Assembly (NCBI GenBank): GCA_020630775.1
Contig: JAHDIN010000011.1
Location: 193-64,192 of the forward strand
Direction of reading: 5' to 3'
Origin: Saprospiraceae bacterium
GTDB taxonomy: Bacteria; Bacteroidota; Bacteroidia; Chitinophagales; Saprospiraceae
DNA length: 64,000 bases
This document shows positions 3,547-11,295 of this stretch, one piece after another. The first letter of the stretch is position 1, and every line of letters starts with the position of its first letter. The translations under genes and the position numbers were made by a program. The notes under the pieces are model-generated. The model had not been told where the DNA came from, searched no databases, and worked only from the letters and a program-made list of their open reading frames with translations.

Positions 3547-4656
3547 TTGAATCGGATAAGGATAGACTTCATTAAGATTTGGAATTTTAGAAATTATGAA
3601 CGGCTAGAATGCCCATTTAATTTCCATTTTAATGTTTTTACTGGTCTTAATGGTGCTGGGAAGACATCCTTGTTAGATGCTATATTTTATGCTACCAATG
3701 GGAAAAGCTATTTCTCCCATAGAGATCAGTACATCTATAGAGAAGGAACAGATTTCTTTAGAATTGAGGCACAGTTAGATGCAGAGTTGACGACGCCACT
3801 AGAAATTACCTCAAGCGCAGTTAAAGGAAAAGCTATCAAACTTGATGAAAAGCGATTAAGCAGACTCGTAGATTTTGTGGGGCGCTATCCATCATTTATG
3901 ATTGCACCAAGAGATATTTCGATATTACTTGAAAGTTCGGTCGAACGAAGGCGTCTCATTAATAAGACTTTATCACAGGTAGATCCGACTTATTTTAAAA
4001 TGCTTCTGGATTATAATAGGCTCTTAAAACAACGTAATGCTCTTTTAAAGTCTATGAATGAAGGTATGAAAGTAGATCCCATTTTAATGGAATCAATCAA
4101 CCAAAAAATGAAACCGCCATCTGATTATATTTTTGAGAAAAGAAATCAATACACGCAAGATATCAAGCCTCTTGTCAACACATTTTACAAAGAGTTAAGT
4201 AACGCCTCTGAAATATTGGAGATAGAATATGCCTCAGAATTACATGAGTCCGATTTGACTGCTTTATTTGAAGCGAATAAGCGTAAAGATATGTTTGCCG
4301 CAAAAACAACGTCCGGCATTCATAAGGATGATATTCGGTTTTTAATGAATAACAAAGAATTAAAAAAGTTTGCTTCCCAAGGACAATTGAAGTCCGCCAT
4401 TATCGCATTAAAATTGGCGCAGCTTGAATTTGTAAGGCAGCAGACTCAGAAAATTCCTATTTTATTATTGGATGATATCTTTGATAAGCTTGATCAACAA
4501 AGAGTAGAAAGCTTTCTGAAAATTTGTCTCGAGACGCTCAATGCTCAAGTTTTTATCACTGATACAGATAAAGAGAGAATTATTTCTCAGTTAGAGAAAC
4601 TAAAGGTAGATTACACCAGTTATGAAATTGCAAACGGTCAAATAGTATCCACTTAA
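3547..4656 (+). CDS. recF: DNA replication/repair protein RecF
   Basis: RecF, 369 aa, an SMC-like ATPase that loads RecA at single-strand gaps with RecO and RecR. Walker A GLNGAGKT is at 33-40, the ABC signature-like SQGQLKSA at 277-284, and Walker B ILLLDDIFDKLD at 305-316 with D309/D310. The N-terminal FRNY motif (14-17) is typical. The start is TTG: an in-frame ATG at 3541 is followed immediately by a stop, and the N-terminus from the TTG matches the family. A second TTG-started gene of the DciA type follows 1 bp after the stop, a common pairing in Bacteroidota. Confidence 0.96.
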   Translation: MNRIRIDFIKIWNFRNYERLECPFNFHFNVFTGLNGAGKTSLLDAIFYATNGKSYFSHRDQYIYREGTDFFRIEAQLDAELTTPLEITSSAVKGKAIKLDEKRLSRLVDFVGRYPSFMIAPRDISILLESSVERRRLINKTLSQVDPTYFKMLLDYNRLLKQRNALLKSMNEGMKVDPILMESINQKMKPPSDYIFEKRNQYTQDIKPLVNTFYKELSNASEILEIEYASELHESDLTALFEANKRKDMFAAKTTSGIHKDDIRFLMNNKELKKFASQGQLKSAIIALKLAQLEFVRQQTQKIPILLLDDIFDKLDQQRVESFLKICLETLNAQVFITDTDKERIISQLEKLKVDYTSYEIANGQIVST

Positions 4657-4657
4657 A

Positions 4658-4948
4658 TTGAGCTCAGACGATCAAAATATTAAAAACCTCATCGGTAATC
4701 TTTTTAGTAAGAACAGCCGCCTGTCCCATAAGTATAACAACTTTAACATGGAGCAAGTATGGAGAGATACCTTCGGTAATGTTATTGCTGACTATACTTC
4801 TAAAATTATATTTCATAAAGGTCGACTCACAGTTTACATCACTTCTTCTCCACTCAAACAAGAGCTGAATATGACCAAGGATAAAGTCATTCTCAGACTC
4901 AATGAAAATTTGAAATATAAGAAGGTCGAGGAGGTGGTGATAAGATGA
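4658..4948 (+). CDS. DUF721 (DciA-like) protein
   Basis: A small 96-aa DUF721 protein. The family core is visible: VWRDTFG (34-40), the T-S-K-IIFHKGRLTVYITSS strand region (about 46-65), then LKQELNMTKDKVILRLNENL. DUF721 includes DciA, the predominant helicase-loading operator in bacteria lacking DnaC/DnaI; whether this short Bacteroidota form does that is inference. It starts at TTG, 1 bp after the recF stop, so it is almost certainly co-transcribed with recF and probably works in replication or repair. Confidence 0.85.
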   Translation: MSSDDQNIKNLIGNLFSKNSRLSHKYNNFNMEQVWRDTFGNVIADYTSKIIFHKGRLTVYITSSPLKQELNMTKDKVILRLNENLKYKKVEEVVIR

Positions 4949-6761: not shown

Positions 6762-7430
6762 ATGAAAAATTTAATAATACTTTTTTTAGTGCTCCCATGG
6801 AGCTTGGTCCATGCACAAACGGAAGTGATAGCATTTAATTCTATAGCTACCGATTTTCAAGATGAACCCATAAAGAATGTTTCGGTGGAAGTTGAAGCCA
6901 CTGTCATCCAAGGTTCCATTTCTGGACCTTCGGTTTATACAGAATTACACAATGTATTGACAGGTCAAAATGGTGAGTTTACTATTGAAATAGGTGACGG
7001 TAATGCGGTCTCCAGTGCATTTGAGGATGTGAATTGGGAATTAAGAAATTATATTTCTATTCGACTAAAACCATCAGGAACAAGCACCTTTTTCAATAAT
7101 GGTCAAGTCGAATTGTTGTCTGTTCCCTATGCCATTTTCGCTACAAAATTAGGTTGTGAAGTAGGTTGCCCTGGTGAAGATGGCGAGAGGGGATTGCAAG
7201 GCGTACAAGGTCCTCAAGGTCCTCAAGGTGATCAAGGTCCAAGTGGATTTGCTGGTCCAGAAGGGGAACCAGGAGAGCAGGGTGTGCCCGCTATTGATTT
7301 GATAGTCTTAAGAGACACAGAACTTAATAATCCTAGTAAAGGCGAATTTTATTTAGATGATGGCACAAACAGGCCTGATGGCAAGCCTGGATTTAGATAC
7401 TTTGATGGTACTAACTGGTTAAATCTATAG
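6762..7430 (+). CDS. Secreted collagen-like protein 1
   Basis: 222 aa: signal peptide (1-19, ending VHAQ), a beta-rich N-terminal domain (about 20-127) ending in VPYA, and an uninterrupted run of about 14 Gly-X-Y triplets at residues 135-176 rich in GPQ/GEQ/GEP. A C-terminal tail of about 45 residues carries YLDDGTN...DGKPGFRYFDG..W..L. The two following genes have the same architecture and tail signature. No T9SS sorting domain is visible, so it may be periplasmic or leave by another route. Prokaryotic collagen triplets of this length can trimerise, but no hydroxyproline is expected. Function unknown; a structural or adhesive surface role is inferred. First of a tandem trio. Confidence 0.88.
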   Translation: MKNLIILFLVLPWSLVHAQTEVIAFNSIATDFQDEPIKNVSVEVEATVIQGSISGPSVYTELHNVLTGQNGEFTIEIGDGNAVSSAFEDVNWELRNYISIRLKPSGTSTFFNNGQVELLSVPYAIFATKLGCEVGCPGEDGERGLQGVQGPQGPQGDQGPSGFAGPEGEPGEQGVPAIDLIVLRDTELNNPSKGEFYLDDGTNRPDGKPGFRYFDGTNWLNL

Positions 7431-7432
7431 AA

Positions 7433-8128
7433 ATGAAAAGATTACTATTTTTTGTTTGTTTGCTTTCCTTTCTGAGCACCAATGCTCAAAAAGTGATAAG
7501 ACCTGTTTGTGATGAGGTAAACGCTATTCCTTATTCATTTACATACACAGGGTTTATAATTTTAGATGACATTTCTCAATTGAATATTAATCAAGGATTG
7601 AGTTTGCGATTGCAAGTAGTAAGCTCTAATCCACAGGGTGAAGTTTTACTAAGTGAATTTCATAATGTCCCTTTTGATAAGTCAGGTTTTTTTAGCGTTC
7701 GAATAGGAAGACAAGGGACTCTACAAATGAATAATCTGATTGATGAAATGAATCAAAGCCAAAATGAATCCTATTTCATAGATGTATATCTACTACAAAA
7801 TGGAAGTTATGAATATATCGGAAGTAAAAAAATACTTACCGTTCCTTATGCTTTAGTGTCCAATGCATTAGGGGGTATTGGTAAGGCTGGTGCTACAGGG
7901 CCGCAAGGTGTTCAAGGTCCACAAGGGGAGCAAGGTGCACAAGGGGCTCCAGGGATTCAAGGCCCTAGCGGTTTGACTGGACCAGAAGGTGTGCCTGCAT
8001 TCGGTATTATGATAATGACAGATACACCTCCTACAGGACAGAATATTTACGTAGATGATGGCACTAATACGGCGGATGGGAAGCCACATCTTAGATTTAA
8101 TAACAATGGAGTTTGGATAGATTTATAA
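7433..8128 (+). CDS. Secreted collagen-like protein 2
   Basis: 231 aa with the same plan as its neighbours: signal peptide (1-19, STNAQ), N-terminal domain with LLSEFHNVPFDKSGFFSVRIG (72-92), then VPYA at 137-140. About 13 Gly-X-Y triplets follow (150-188), and the tail carries YVDDGTNTADGKPHLRFN and a final WIDL. It begins 2 bp after the stop of the previous paralogue, so translation is probably coupled. The N-terminal domain is the most divergent of the three. Function unknown; differences among the three suggest they form hetero- rather than purely homotrimers, which is inference. Confidence 0.87.
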   Translation: MKRLLFFVCLLSFLSTNAQKVIRPVCDEVNAIPYSFTYTGFIILDDISQLNINQGLSLRLQVVSSNPQGEVLLSEFHNVPFDKSGFFSVRIGRQGTLQMNNLIDEMNQSQNESYFIDVYLLQNGSYEYIGSKKILTVPYALVSNALGGIGKAGATGPQGVQGPQGEQGAQGAPGIQGPSGLTGPEGVPAFGIMIMTDTPPTGQNIYVDDGTNTADGKPHLRFNNNGVWIDL

Positions 8129-8137
8129 TAAAGAATT

Positions 8138-8794
8138 ATGAAACAACTAGCAATTTACGTTTTACTCTTAATGAGTATTTCATTACATGGACAGATTAGT
8201 GATGCCTTTACCTTTCAAGGTTTTCTAAGTTCTGCAAATGGGCAAGTATTGGAAAATACAAAAGCAGAAATTCAAGTGACCATTCATAGTCGTGCATTTA
8301 TAACAGAGCCAGTATATACGGAAGTACATGATTTACAAACCAACCAACATGGCATTTTTAATATCGAAATTGGTTCTGGTGTAGCGGTATTTGGAAAGTT
8401 TGAAGATATAGACTGGCTGACTAATGTACCTAGCATAGAATTAAGTTACGACCTAGATGATGGTAAAGGAATGAGAACATTGGAAAGACAAAGCTTAGAT
8501 GCTGTACCATTCTGTTTCTCGTCTAAATATATAGTTTGTCAAGATGGCGTTGAAGGTCCGCAAGGTCCTCAAGGTCTTCAAGGTCCTCAGGGGGAACAAG
8601 GTCCTCAAGGTGCTATTGGATTTCCTGGGGAGAAAGGCCTTCAAGGGCCTCCCGGAGAATTAAAGTTACCTCTATTAGATAGCCCACCTTTAAATCCTCA
8701 AGAAGGAACCATATATATGGATGATGGCACCAATACTGAAGATAATAGTCCAAGTTTTAGGTATTACGATGGAAGCGTTTGGATTGATTTGTAA
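8138..8794 (+). CDS. Secreted collagen-like protein 3
   Basis: 218 aa: signal peptide (1-19, SLHGQ) and an N-terminal domain closely resembling paralogue 1, with [21 protein letters not shown] at 59-79 and FEDIDW near 88-93. About 13 Gly-X-Y triplets at 137-175 include GFP, GEK and GPP. The tail carries [20 protein letters not shown] and WIDL. Cysteines at 126 and 134 flank the entry to the triplet region, as two Cys (132, 136) do in paralogue 1, which could cross-link chains. Last gene of the operon; a purine/pyrimidine-rich hairpin follows. Confidence 0.87.
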
Positions 8795-8902: not shown

Positions 8903-10003
8903 CTAAATCTCATGATATTTCATCTTGAACGCATCCGATACACCCTTATGGACAACTTTACCATGAATAACATTCAGTCCATTTTTTAATCCTTCATCTG
9001 CAGACGTTGCTTTTTCCCAACCCATATCCGCTAATTTAATAGCATAGGGTAGAGTAGCATTAGTTAAAGCAATTGTACTTGTGTAAGGAACTGCACCAGG
9101 CATATTAGCCACGCAGTAATGGACAATGTCATCAATGATGTAAATTGGTTTTGCATGCGTTGTTGGCTTGCAAGTCTCAATACAGCCACCTTGATCCACG
9201 GCAACGTCTACCAAGACACTGCCAGGATTCATAGCCTTTAAATCCTTTCGTTTAATGAGATGAGGAGCCTTAGCGCCTGGAATTAAAACAGCTCCAACTA
9301 TAAGGTCATGATATCTTATCGCTTTTTGAATATTGTATGCGTTCGAATATTGGGTTTGAACATTTGCAGGCATAACATCAGCTAGATATCTTAATCTATT
9401 TAAATTAATGTCCATGATCGTGACGCTTGCACCTAATCCAGCCGCCATTTTAGCAGCTTGAGTTCCTACAACACCACCACCTAAAACTAGAACGTTAGCA
9501 GGAGGTACGCCTGGCACACCGCCTAATAAAATCCCTTTACCCATCATAGGCTTTTCCAAATACTTGGCGCCTTCTTGGATTGCCATACGACCAGCTACTT
9601 CTGACATAGGTACCAATAATGGCAGAGAACCATCTGGATTGGTAACCGTTTCGTAAGCCAGACAAACTGAGCCACTTTTAATCATAGCATTTGTCAGTGG
9701 TCTTGAAGAAGCAAAGTGGAAGTAGGTGAATAATAGTTGGTCTTTTTTAACCAACTTGTATTCTGATTTAATGGGTTCTTTTACCTTGATAATCATTTCA
9801 GCCTTTTTATAGACATCTTCAATCTTAGGTAAAATTTTAGCACCTGCTTTTTTATATTCAGCATCAGAAAAGCCAGAGCCGACACCAGCTGTTTTTTGTA
9901 TAAAAACTTTGTGGCCTCTGTTGCTCAATTCAAATGCACCAGCAGGGGTTAATGCGACACGATTCTCGTTGTTTTTGATTTCCTTTGGAACACCTATAAT
10001 CAT
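8903..10003 (-). CDS. ald: Alanine dehydrogenase
   Basis: NAD-dependent alanine dehydrogenase, 366 aa (family norm about 370), interconverting L-alanine and pyruvate plus ammonia. The N-terminus MIIGVPKEIKNNENRVALTP is diagnostic. Catalytic/substrate residues R15, K75 (in KVKEP) and H96 (in YFHFA) are all in place. The Rossmann motif VLVLGGGVVG is at 171-180 and the Asp-containing VDVAVDQGG near 268. Upstream, in the same orientation, lie two intrinsic-terminator hairpins each preceded by the same 19-nt block, so expression may be attenuated. Divergent from the pseudouridine synthase gene. Confidence 0.96.
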   Translation of the reverse strand: MIIGVPKEIKNNENRVALTPAGAFELSNRGHKVFIQKTAGVGSGFSDAEYKKAGAKILPKIEDVYKKAEMIIKVKEPIKSEYKLVKKDQLLFTYFHFASSRPLTNAMIKSGSVCLAYETVTNPDGSLPLLVPMSEVAGRMAIQEGAKYLEKPMMGKGILLGGVPGVPPANVLVLGGGVVGTQAAKMAAGLGASVTIMDINLNRLRYLADVMPANVQTQYSNAYNIQKAIRYHDLIVGAVLIPGAKAPHLIKRKDLKAMNPGSVLVDVAVDQGGCIETCKPTTHAKPIYIIDDIVHYCVANMPGAVPYTSTIALTNATLPYAIKLADMGWEKATSADEGLKNGLNVIHGKVVHKGVSDAFKMKYHEI

Positions 10004-10061
10004 GAGTTTAGGTTTGTAGTTAGGTTAGATTTAATTTGGATGGGTAAATTAAGGAAAGAAA

Positions 10062-10088
10062 TAAAAATACCCGTGAAAAAATCACGGG
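10062..10088 (-). terminator. Intrinsic terminator module A upstream of ald
   Basis: On the minus strand, arms CCCGTGA (10088-10082) and TCACGGG (10076-10070) form a 7-bp stem with a 5-nt loop, followed by a TATTTTTATTT tract. It lies about 65 bp upstream of the ald start and points toward ald. The block CAATTTAATAACCAAAACT (plus strand, 10096-10114) precedes it, 7 nt away. Confidence 0.75.
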
Positions 10089-10095
10089 CATTACT

Positions 10096-10114
10096 CAATT
10101 TAATAACCAAAACT
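10096..10114 (-). repeat. 19-nt conserved block, copy A
   Basis: The minus-strand AGTTTTGGTTATTAAATTG is identical to the block at 10272-10290. In this copy it is preceded by AT, giving a minimal reading frame ATG-AGT-TTT-GGT-TAT-TAA (Met-Ser-Phe-Gly-Tyr-stop). The other copy lacks the ATG but keeps Ser-Phe-Gly-Tyr-stop in frame. Each copy is directly upstream of a terminator hairpin. Confidence 0.85.
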
Positions 10115-10228
10115 CATTTGATTATTATTTTTCAAAGAGCATGCCAAGTATGATGTTTTTTCTATATATGTACTTAAACTAGTGATTTTTAACACTTTAT
10201 ATAGAAATTTAAGGGCTGAGGGAGGTAC

Positions 10229-10257
10229 AAAAAAAAAGCTCGTGACATTTCACGAGC
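10229..10257 (-). terminator. Intrinsic terminator module B upstream of ald
   Basis: On the minus strand, a perfect 8-bp stem GCTCGTGA/TCACGAGC with a 4-nt loop (10257-10238) is followed by nine T residues (10237-10229). This is a textbook Rho-independent terminator. It lies 225 bp before the ald start, downstream of block copy B and of a -7-like box. Confidence 0.9.
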
Positions 10258-10271
10258 AAAAACGAATTTTA

Positions 10272-10290
10272 CAATTTAATAACCAAAACT
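10272..10290 (-). repeat. 19-nt conserved block, copy B
   Basis: Identical over 19 nt to copy A at 10096-10114 and placed 14 nt before the stem of terminator B. Block, linker and terminator recur twice in the same order within about 220 bp, while the flanking sequence does not match. This indicates selection on the block rather than a recent duplication. Confidence 0.85.
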
Positions 10291-10299
10291 TACACAATA

Positions 10300-10307
10300 C
10301 AAATATA
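10300..10307 (-). promoter_or_regulatory. -7 box upstream of the ald leader
   Basis: The minus-strand TATATTTG is an exact match to TAnnTTTG, placed so that transcription would begin near 10294 and run through terminator B toward ald. The surrounding 10310-10400 is extremely AT-rich, with alternating TATATA stretches and no other feature recognised. Confidence 0.5.
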
Positions 10308-10421
10308 TACATATTATTAAATATACATATATGTAAATGTGTTAAAATCAGTATTTTATAAATAATATTATATTTTAATATAATAATAACTGATAATCAA
10401 CTATTTATAACTTTTTGCTTC

Positions 10422-11114
10422 ATGATTGAAATGCCTGATATTGATATTATACACGAGGATAATCATCTTTTGGTGGTAAATAAGCCCTCAGGTGTATTAA
10501 GCCAAGGGGATCAAACTGGAGATTTGACAATTCTAGATATTGGAAAAGCATATATCAAAGTCACTTATGATAAACCTGGAGAGGTATTTTTAGGCTTACC
10601 GCATCGATTAGATCGACCTACCTCAGGAATTATGGTATTATGTAAAACTTCAAAATCACTTACTAGAATGACTCAGTTGATAAAGGATCGTGATTTCGAA
10701 AAGGAATATTTATGTATAACCAAAGGCAAGACAAAGATGCCTCAAGGAAGATTAATCAATTTTCTTAAAAAGGATACCAAAAGAAATAAAGCCATAGTCA
10801 GAGATCAGCCCTTTAAAGGTGCAAAAGAAGCCATTCTGAATTATGAATTAAAAGGGCAGAAGCGGGATAGATACCTCTATTCAATACTACTAGAAACTGG
10901 GCGACCACACCAAATTAGAGCACAAATGTCTAATCAAGGAGCTATCATACTAGGTGATAAAAAATATGGTATGAAAAAGCCTCTGCCTGATAAATCAATA
11001 GCCCTCCATGCCAGAAGATTGAAATTTATTCACCCAGTATCAAAAACCGAATTGAATCTTGTCGCTCACTGTCCCTCTGACGCTTGGTGGAAAGCGTTTT
11101 CAGATCTTATTTAA
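10422..11114 (+). CDS. RluA-family pseudouridine synthase
   Basis: A 230-aa RNA pseudouridine synthase of the RluA/RluC/RluD family. The catalytic motif HRLDRPTSG is at 61-69 (Asp64), with the downstream ETGRPHQIRAQM block (about 165-176) and KYG near 192. It is shorter than RluC/RluD because there is no N-terminal S4 domain, so it is of the compact single-domain type. The target (rRNA or tRNA uridine) cannot be assigned. Divergent from ald and followed by the SRP RNA gene. Confidence 0.92.
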   Translation: MIEMPDIDIIHEDNHLLVVNKPSGVLSQGDQTGDLTILDIGKAYIKVTYDKPGEVFLGLPHRLDRPTSGIMVLCKTSKSLTRMTQLIKDRDFEKEYLCITKGKTKMPQGRLINFLKKDTKRNKAIVRDQPFKGAKEAILNYELKGQKRDRYLYSILLETGRPHQIRAQMSNQGAIILGDKKYGMKKPLPDKSIALHARRLKFIHPVSKTELNLVAHCPSDAWWKAFSDLI

Positions 11115-11164: not shown

Positions 11165-11172
11165 TACCTTTG
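11165..11172 (+). promoter_or_regulatory. -7 box for SRP RNA
   Basis: TACCTTTG is an exact TAnnTTTG match ending 5 bp before the predicted 5' end of the SRP RNA, which is the expected spacing for Bacteroidota. Confidence 0.65.
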
Positions 11173-11177
11173 CAGCC

Positions 11178-11270
11178 GGTGAGGGGCAAACGGCAAGCTC
11201 CTGCTGAATTCCCCCAGGGCAGAAATGCAGCAAGGGTAGGCGGTTGAGCGGCTGGGTTTGCTTCCTCACT
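11178..11270 (+). ncRNA. ffs: Signal recognition particle RNA (small bacterial 4.5S type)
   Basis: The hallmark apical domain CAGGGCAGAAATGCAGCAAGG (around 11215-11235) carries the asymmetric and symmetric loops bound by Ffh. Long terminal complementarity pairs GTGAGG...GCAAAC at the 5' end with GTTTGC..CCTCAC at the 3' end, giving one rod-like hairpin of about 93 nt. A T-run follows (11270-11274) as terminator. It lies between the pseudouridine synthase and aldolase genes, with its own -7 box. The product scaffolds Ffh for co-translational targeting to FtsY at the inner membrane. Confidence 0.93.
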
Positions 11271-11295
11271 TTTTCATTTTAAACTCAATCTTACT

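Follow-up and report, generated by a model that had tools for sequence, protein, structure and literature searches.

A 19-nt block, AGTTTTGGTTATTAAATTG, occurs twice, in exact form, on the minus strand between ald and a divergent rluA-family gene in the DNA of a Saprospiraceae bacterium, and the question that this locus raises is what the two copies do. We refer to the whole stretch of DNA that was analysed, 64,000 nucleotides in length, as the window. A first-pass annotation had placed the blocks at 10290–10272 and 10114–10096, each followed by an intrinsic terminator and the first preceded by a -7 box at 10307–10300, and had offered two readings, a tandem attenuator controlling ald or two tiny small RNA genes. 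All of its coordinates were verified: both blocks are where it put them, both terminators are genuine, and TATATTTG is found exactly at 10307–10300. It had mentioned neither a sigma-54 promoter located between the two units nor a dyad lying across the first promoter. The features of the region are as follows, with A denoting the upstream unit and B the downstream one.

8903–10003, minus strand: ald, alanine dehydrogenase, neighbour of the pair (TIGR00518, E 1.8e-157)
10060–10120, minus strand: predicted sRNA B, about 60 nt, beginning 5′ AAAUGAGUUUUGGUUAUUAAAUUGAGUAAUGCCCGUGA..., with its 5′ end placed from the -12 element
10060–10092, minus strand: terminator of sRNA B, AATGCCCGTGA-(5)-TCACGGGTATT at 10092–10066, then a T-rich tail
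10096–10114, minus strand: block copy B, common seed, exact repeat
10132–10147, minus strand: putative sigma-54 -24/-12 promoter of copy B, TTGGCATGCTCTTTGA; TTGGCAT-N4-TTTGA
10229–10295, minus strand: predicted sRNA A, about 67 nt, beginning 5′ GUGUAAGUUUUGGUUAUUAAAUUGUAAAAUUCGUUUUUGCUCGUGA..., with its 5′ end placed from the promoter
10229–10257, minus strand: terminator of sRNA A, an 8-bp stem and 9 T; GCTCGTGA-AATG-TCACGAGC-T9, stem-loop part at 10257–10238
10272–10290, minus strand: block copy A, common seed, exact repeat
10300–10307, minus strand: -7 box TATATTTG of copy A, at a fixed distance to the block across type A loci
10309–10334, minus strand: dyad over the type A promoter, ACATATA (10334–10328), 12-nt spacer, AATATGT (10315–10309)
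10422–11114, plus strand: RluA-family pseudouridine synthase (PF00849; synteny)

When up to three mismatches are allowed, 0.12 block matches are expected by chance in the window and two matches arose in 1 of 100 shuffles; at the same threshold the 64-kb window holds no further copy. The sigma-54 promoter stands after the first terminator and before the second block. Its geometry in type B and that of the -7 box in type A both put the transcription start a few nucleotides before the block, and the block would therefore lie at the 5′ end of both RNAs. Elsewhere in the window, an RF04183 (Bacteroidales small SRP RNA) gene lies at 11171–11272, directly past the rluA-family gene, and three successive secreted ORFs at 6762–8794 all carry collagen-like repeats (G-P-Q/G-x-y) and resemble one another at the C-terminus ('DDGTN...').

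An exact scan for the block across 84,980 species genomes returned 75 contig stretches, about 71 of which come from Saprospiraceae or from unnamed Bacteroidetes/Chitinophagales MAGs and have the same anatomy, far more than chance would give; the four exceptions (Flavobacterium, Mycoplasma, Desulfosporosinus, and Maribacter) are single block matches without this anatomy. Two exact copies are present in 22 of the 75 stretches, mostly 120–280 nt apart, and many apparent single-copy loci have a partner with a slightly altered block close by. Type A loci (alignment A1, 36 relatives) read ACATATT-N12-AATATGT, TATATTTG, GTGTA, block, TAAAATTCGTTTTTGCTCG, and terminator, and type B loci (alignment A3, 41 relatives) read TTGGCAY-N4-TTTG, about 15 nt, (AT)ATG, block, AGTAATGCCCGTG, and terminator. 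The block is nearly invariant throughout, and in type A so are the 10 nt that follow it. Part of the block's invariance comes from the way loci were selected, since many were found through the exact block; the altered-block partners and the long form described below were found without that requirement. Covariance models detect type A-like RNAs (model R1) in 123 and type B-like RNAs (model R2) in 86 of 248 Saprospiraceae genomes, counts in which some weak matches of either model belong to the other type.

Block and hairpin are kept as a unit across relatives, in agreement with the earlier view that they are selected together. Covariation of the terminator stem reaches 0.401 in type A (0.127 in shuffles; 97.6% of cells paired), 0.188 in type B (0.116 in shuffles), and 0.603 in a wider alignment (0.273 in shuffles), in which 5 of 5 core pairs show covariation and pairing holds in 100% of cells; kinship of the sequences inflates this shuffle test, and slid controls fall far below too. 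By motif, then, each unit has its own promoter and intrinsic terminator, and the seed is conserved while the remainder varies and the terminator covaries, as looked for in a trans-acting sRNA gene. At gathering score, Rfam contains no sRNA family that matches the window or its relatives; at a relaxed threshold RprA, Anti-Q, and others were matched at chance level only and were set aside. A literature search returned no paper mentioning Saprospiraceae together with sRNAs. As far as these searches of Rfam and the literature show, the pair belongs to an undescribed Saprospiraceae sRNA family of the sibling type, and the first-pass annotation had likewise known of no described family that fits.

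The same alignments bear on whether the block is instead a tiny coding gene, Met-Ser-Phe-Gly-Tyr-stop. The reading ATG-AGT-TTT-GGT-TAT-TAA suggested earlier is correct for the downstream copy but not for the upstream one, where GTA replaces ATG. This difference is general: a start codon, ATG or TTG, stands before the block in 60 of 62 type B copies, as a coding gene would require, but GTA takes its place in 46 of 47 type A copies with the block unchanged. Synonymous variation is zero across five codons in more than 100 copies, and conservation extends beyond the stop, so that we give a coding function next to no probability.

The promoter motifs of the two types recur with their loci. A -24/-12 motif lies 28–35 nt 5′ of the block in 59 of the 62 type B loci, and the exact form TTGGCAY-N4-WTTG is present in 50 of the 62, against a background density of 0.049 per kb in the same DNA. 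Sigma-54 is encoded (rpoN) in 187 of 189 good Saprospiraceae genomes and in all three genus relatives; rpoN was not found in the organism's own assembly, which is 54% complete. Three type B RNAs (L028:948, L040:5905, and L050:157) are without a sigma-54 promoter and have a different loop, CCCGGGGAAAAGTCTCACGGG; in L040 a -7 promoter motif resembling that of type A lies farther upstream. Among type A promoters, 40 of 47 carry ACATATT-N(10–14)-AATATGT with at most one mismatch per half, compared with 0.95 expected in shuffles, and the spacer is 12 nt in 41 of 46; the dyad is probably the operator of some regulator. The ACATATT half-site is also enriched 5′ of type B (50 of 62, about 20 expected), and its enrichment before both types hints that both may be under a common regulator. 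The full dyad is seen in 15 of 62 type B upstream regions (e.g. in L065 around 4640–4700). Judged by these motifs, the unusual trait of the family is that identical seeds sit side by side beneath two sigma-factor classes.

This arrangement, together with the genomic context, weighs against a tandem transcription attenuator of ald, in which upstream transcripts would end at either terminator unless a signal gave read-through. What speaks for attenuation is that the window and about two dozen relatives have ald downstream of the pair in the same orientation, and that in the window no clear -7 promoter was seen in the DNA separating ald from the second terminator. Each unit nevertheless has its own promoter motif, with the sigma-54 promoter standing between the two, and comparison of relatives shows that the pair does not always precede ald: L048 and L075 have it in inverted orientation to ald, L037 has its two units on opposite strands, and convergent genes follow it in ten loci or more (L025, L031, L039, L042, L049, L051, L057, L060, L062, and L063). 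Some genomes have A beside a gene that by eye is Fur-like or MqnD-like and B before ald elsewhere, and many loci have the RluA-family gene next to copy A in divergent orientation. The varied contexts and the promoter between the units thus argue against a conserved cis role for ald. Nor is the block paired with the terminator stems, whose sequences vary freely; the pairing predicted between block and downstream sequence is weak and conserved, and leaves the terminator uninvolved. Arrays of the long form, finally, are located elsewhere. We therefore regard attenuation of ald as very unlikely, and ald is probably not a target of the A and B RNAs either, whereas the alternative of two tiny small RNA genes is strongly supported. 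A recurrent ORF of about 85–90 aa, helix-turn-helix-like (MNITFEELRKIKHSLPTGSISKIATMLDLEEQTVRNYFGAKKY...), occurs near the locus in about 20 cases, past ald in L010, L015, L020, L034, and L035 and near the RNA in L016 and L022.

The weaker matches of the type A model proved to be a sister long form with the layout GTGTAAGTTTTGGTTAAAGAATTGTAAGATTCGTTT-terminator, which is arrayed in tandem in groups of two to four copies or more (L143–L146, L148, L149, L153, and L178). A sigma-54 promoter precedes 48 of 54 long-form copies and a -7 box precedes 5. Searched against 345 Bacteroidota genomes, the long-form model gave only two weak matches outside Saprospiraceae (E 0.003–0.01), both without the anatomy. 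The sigma-54 form has the wider distribution, and the simplest reading of type A is therefore a duplicate that would have switched its promoter.

If the block is a seed, its antisense, TTTAATAACCAAAACT, should mark the targets, and this site was found in front of genes for secreted proteins, where it ends about 7 nt short of the ATG. The best non-self match in the organism's own genome (18 of 19) lies in the leader of a gene that we call T1, as CAATTTATTAACCAAAACT-N7-ATG (leader sequence, TTTATTAACCAAAACTTTATCCCATG); the product, 1,399 aa long, has a signal peptide as well as a T9SS type A sorting domain (TIGR04183, E 1.1e-10). A near-match, L003, taken for a third block copy, is actually the T1 target on the opposite strand. 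An initial search with AATAACCAAAACT and one mismatch gave no bulk enrichment over the reversed pattern, and after this null result a signal emerged only with anchoring to start codons and gene class. We compared 37 genomes that have A/B RNAs with 37 that lack them, using the pattern TAACCAAAACT-N3..15-ATG and calling signal peptides by a hydrophobicity heuristic. The pattern has about 110 matches in the former and 46 in the latter, which comprise a larger amount of DNA. In the genomes with the RNAs, 56 of 61 non-self ORF-opening sites precede hydrophobic, signal-like N-termini, mostly at a spacing of 7–8 nt; in those without, 8 of 17 ORF-opening sites examined are signal-like and the recurring genes are absent, a negative control on targets that is weak because true T1 orthologues are mostly absent from these genomes. 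The total count of TAACCAAAACT-N-ATG is not above that of the reversed-pattern control, and the target signal resides in recurrence, gene class, and spacing. Two classes of protein recur: T1, large surface proteins with an N-terminus like ACNDNVQVSLD..CEADITPDMILEG, and T2, orphan secreted proteins of about 120–140 aa, three of which were searched against Pfam and gave no match.

An independent test was provided by T1 homologues picked by protein similarity alone and with a start that could be placed (n = 20). At least 11 of the 13 site bases are present within 45 nt before the start in 17 of the 20, the organism's own T1 included, and shuffled T1 leaders reach the observed site score in 0–0.5% of trials. 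Two of the remaining homologues have a degenerate site in the same place, and the last probably has a misassigned start, its genome holding an exact site (L363). When 21 T1 leaders are aligned, 17 found via protein similarity and 4 via the site, a 14-base stretch is near-invariant and the flanks diverge. Duplex energies for the organism's own target, -29.3 and -33.8 kcal/mol, are only moderately better than the shuffled-leader means of -23.0 and -22.2 kcal/mol. A leader motif with another role could account for part of the fixed 7-nt spacing. In many T1 leaders a short hairpin of varying sequence (CGTCTC..GAGACG, CCTCG..CGAGG) lies just 5′ of the antisense site, for example in L401 upstream of 495 (G000:C5).

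Beyond the common core, the base that follows is usually T at T1 sites, which extends the match to A, and C at T2 sites, which extends it to B (Fisher p 3e-4; related genes were counted individually), a split that is suggestive only of A and B specialising on T1 and T2, respectively. Genomes with the long form yielded no such leader targets. A second conserved region of the long form, GAATCTTACAA, was tried before ATG (50 matches, about 20 for the reversed control) and was rejected, the N-termini being signal-like at only 3 of 9 ORF-opening sites examined.

Complementary sites are thus conserved at unlinked mRNAs in genomes with type A/B RNAs, and their location at defined genes is difficult to reconcile with a dispersed repeat or mobile element that carries a terminator and has no function in trans. 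Such an element would be multicopy and tandem, as the family is in several genomes, but most genomes have one to few copies, no transposase was noticed next to them, and promoter types, seed, and covarying terminator are all under selection. We accord this explanation a very small probability.

A different alternative accepts the pairing with secreted-protein leaders and reverses its consequence: the RNAs would activate or stabilise these mRNAs, or would be titrated by them, as abundant messages acting as a sponge. The complementarity is conserved, and the sequence is compatible with either sign. The site falls inside the ribosome footprint, though, the computed fold of the organism's own T1 leader has no strong inhibitory structure over the site that pairing might relieve, and FopS, the experimentally studied analogue in the phylum, represses. 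We thus hold activation or titration to be unlikely, while giving it more weight than the other alternatives.

Our preferred reading, which we consider probable, is that A and B are sibling trans-acting sRNAs with one shared seed that, under two sigma factors, repress the translation of secreted surface proteins. What the sequence itself gives is the layout of the genes, their conservation, the promoter motifs, the distribution of the family, and the conserved complementary sites; from these we infer transcription, pairing, its negative sign, and the response of the two promoters to different signals. A would be made from a housekeeping-type -7 promoter overlapped by the conserved dyad operator, and B from a sigma-54 promoter, for which it would need an enhancer-binding activator. 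Both RNAs would start a few nucleotides from the block, leave it largely unpaired, and stop at their own terminators. The seed AGUUUUGGUUAUUAAA would then pair with UUUAAUAACCAAAACU, a site that stops some 7 nt short of the AUG in mRNAs encoding exported proteins, predicted to be the surface protein of about 1,400 aa sorted by the T9SS and the orphan signal-peptide proteins of about 120–140 aa; pairing at the leader would block ribosome access and translation would fall. With two promoter types, two different conditions could trigger the same repression. Repression near the start codon through a 5′ seed, as reported for FopS (PMC11697453), gives the proposed mode a precedent in the phylum.

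More tentatively, and with less than even confidence, the RNAs may form a Saprospiraceae-wide sigma-54 sRNA regulon, equivalent in Bacteroidota to sigma-E with RybB and MicA, in which the twin in one clade was re-wired to a housekeeping promoter and A and B are starting to specialise. Envelope or secretion stress would act through sigma-54 to fire the tandem sRNA genes and turn off translation of surface proteins exported by the T9SS; in one clade the twin, moved to a housekeeping promoter with a new operator, would let a second signal evoke the same repression, and large surface proteins would tend to extend the match to A and small secreted ones to B. In another member of the phylum, Flavobacterium psychrophilum, the functions under sigma-54 promoters span protein quality control, envelope stress, gliding, and exported proteins (PMC9723704), so that stress on the envelope or on secretion would by analogy be a plausible input.

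If these proposals are true, Saprospiraceae gain a conserved sRNA regulon with predicted direct targets, sigma-54 is linked in Bacteroidota to post-transcriptional control of T9SS surface proteins, and the duplicated RNAs, with one seed and two sigma-factor classes, offer a natural experiment on how promoters are re-wired. Activated sludge and marine systems commonly harbour Saprospiraceae.

RybB and MicA are envelope-stress sRNAs that depend on sigma-E and shut down the synthesis of exported surface proteins, RybB pairing via its 5′ end; they differ from the RNAs described here in their sigma factor, sigma-E and not sigma-54, and in belonging to another phylum. The Qrr sRNAs are driven by sigma-54, are encoded at distal loci, have quorum-sensing targets, and are Hfq-dependent. 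Like Qrr of Vibrio, which is listed among sibling sRNAs (PMC4211561), the Saprospiraceae RNAs comprise several siblings with a common seed and sigma-54 promoters, although the sequences are unrelated. They resemble OmrA/OmrB and other tandem siblings in having near-identical 5′ ends, divergent bodies, and (predicted) surface-protein targets (PMC4211561), but OmrA/OmrB are enterobacterial and unrelated in sequence, and the Saprospiraceae siblings differ from one another by two sigma-factor classes of promoter. Rfp18 of F. psychrophilum, with predicted protease and adhesin targets, pairs via a stem-loop, and its deletion lowers target mRNA (PMC9723704); we found no evidence of homology between Rfp18 and the Saprospiraceae RNAs or of a sigma-54 promoter for it. 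A close parallel in the phylum is with FopS and GibS of Bacteroides thetaiotaomicron, paralogous sRNAs with a common seed and different promoters, of which FopS represses surface-protein mRNAs near the start codon through its 5′ seed (PMC11697453). FopS has reportedly been deposited in Rfam, and the lack of an Rfam match here is telling only if the search set included its model. Both groups are multicopy Bacteroidota sRNAs with a single-stranded 5′ seed and a terminator; FopS and GibS have another seed and sequence and SusC targets, and FopS uses canonical sigma-ABfr promoters (PMC11697453), whereas the Saprospiraceae RNAs are distinguished by their sigma-54 promoters and tandem pairs.
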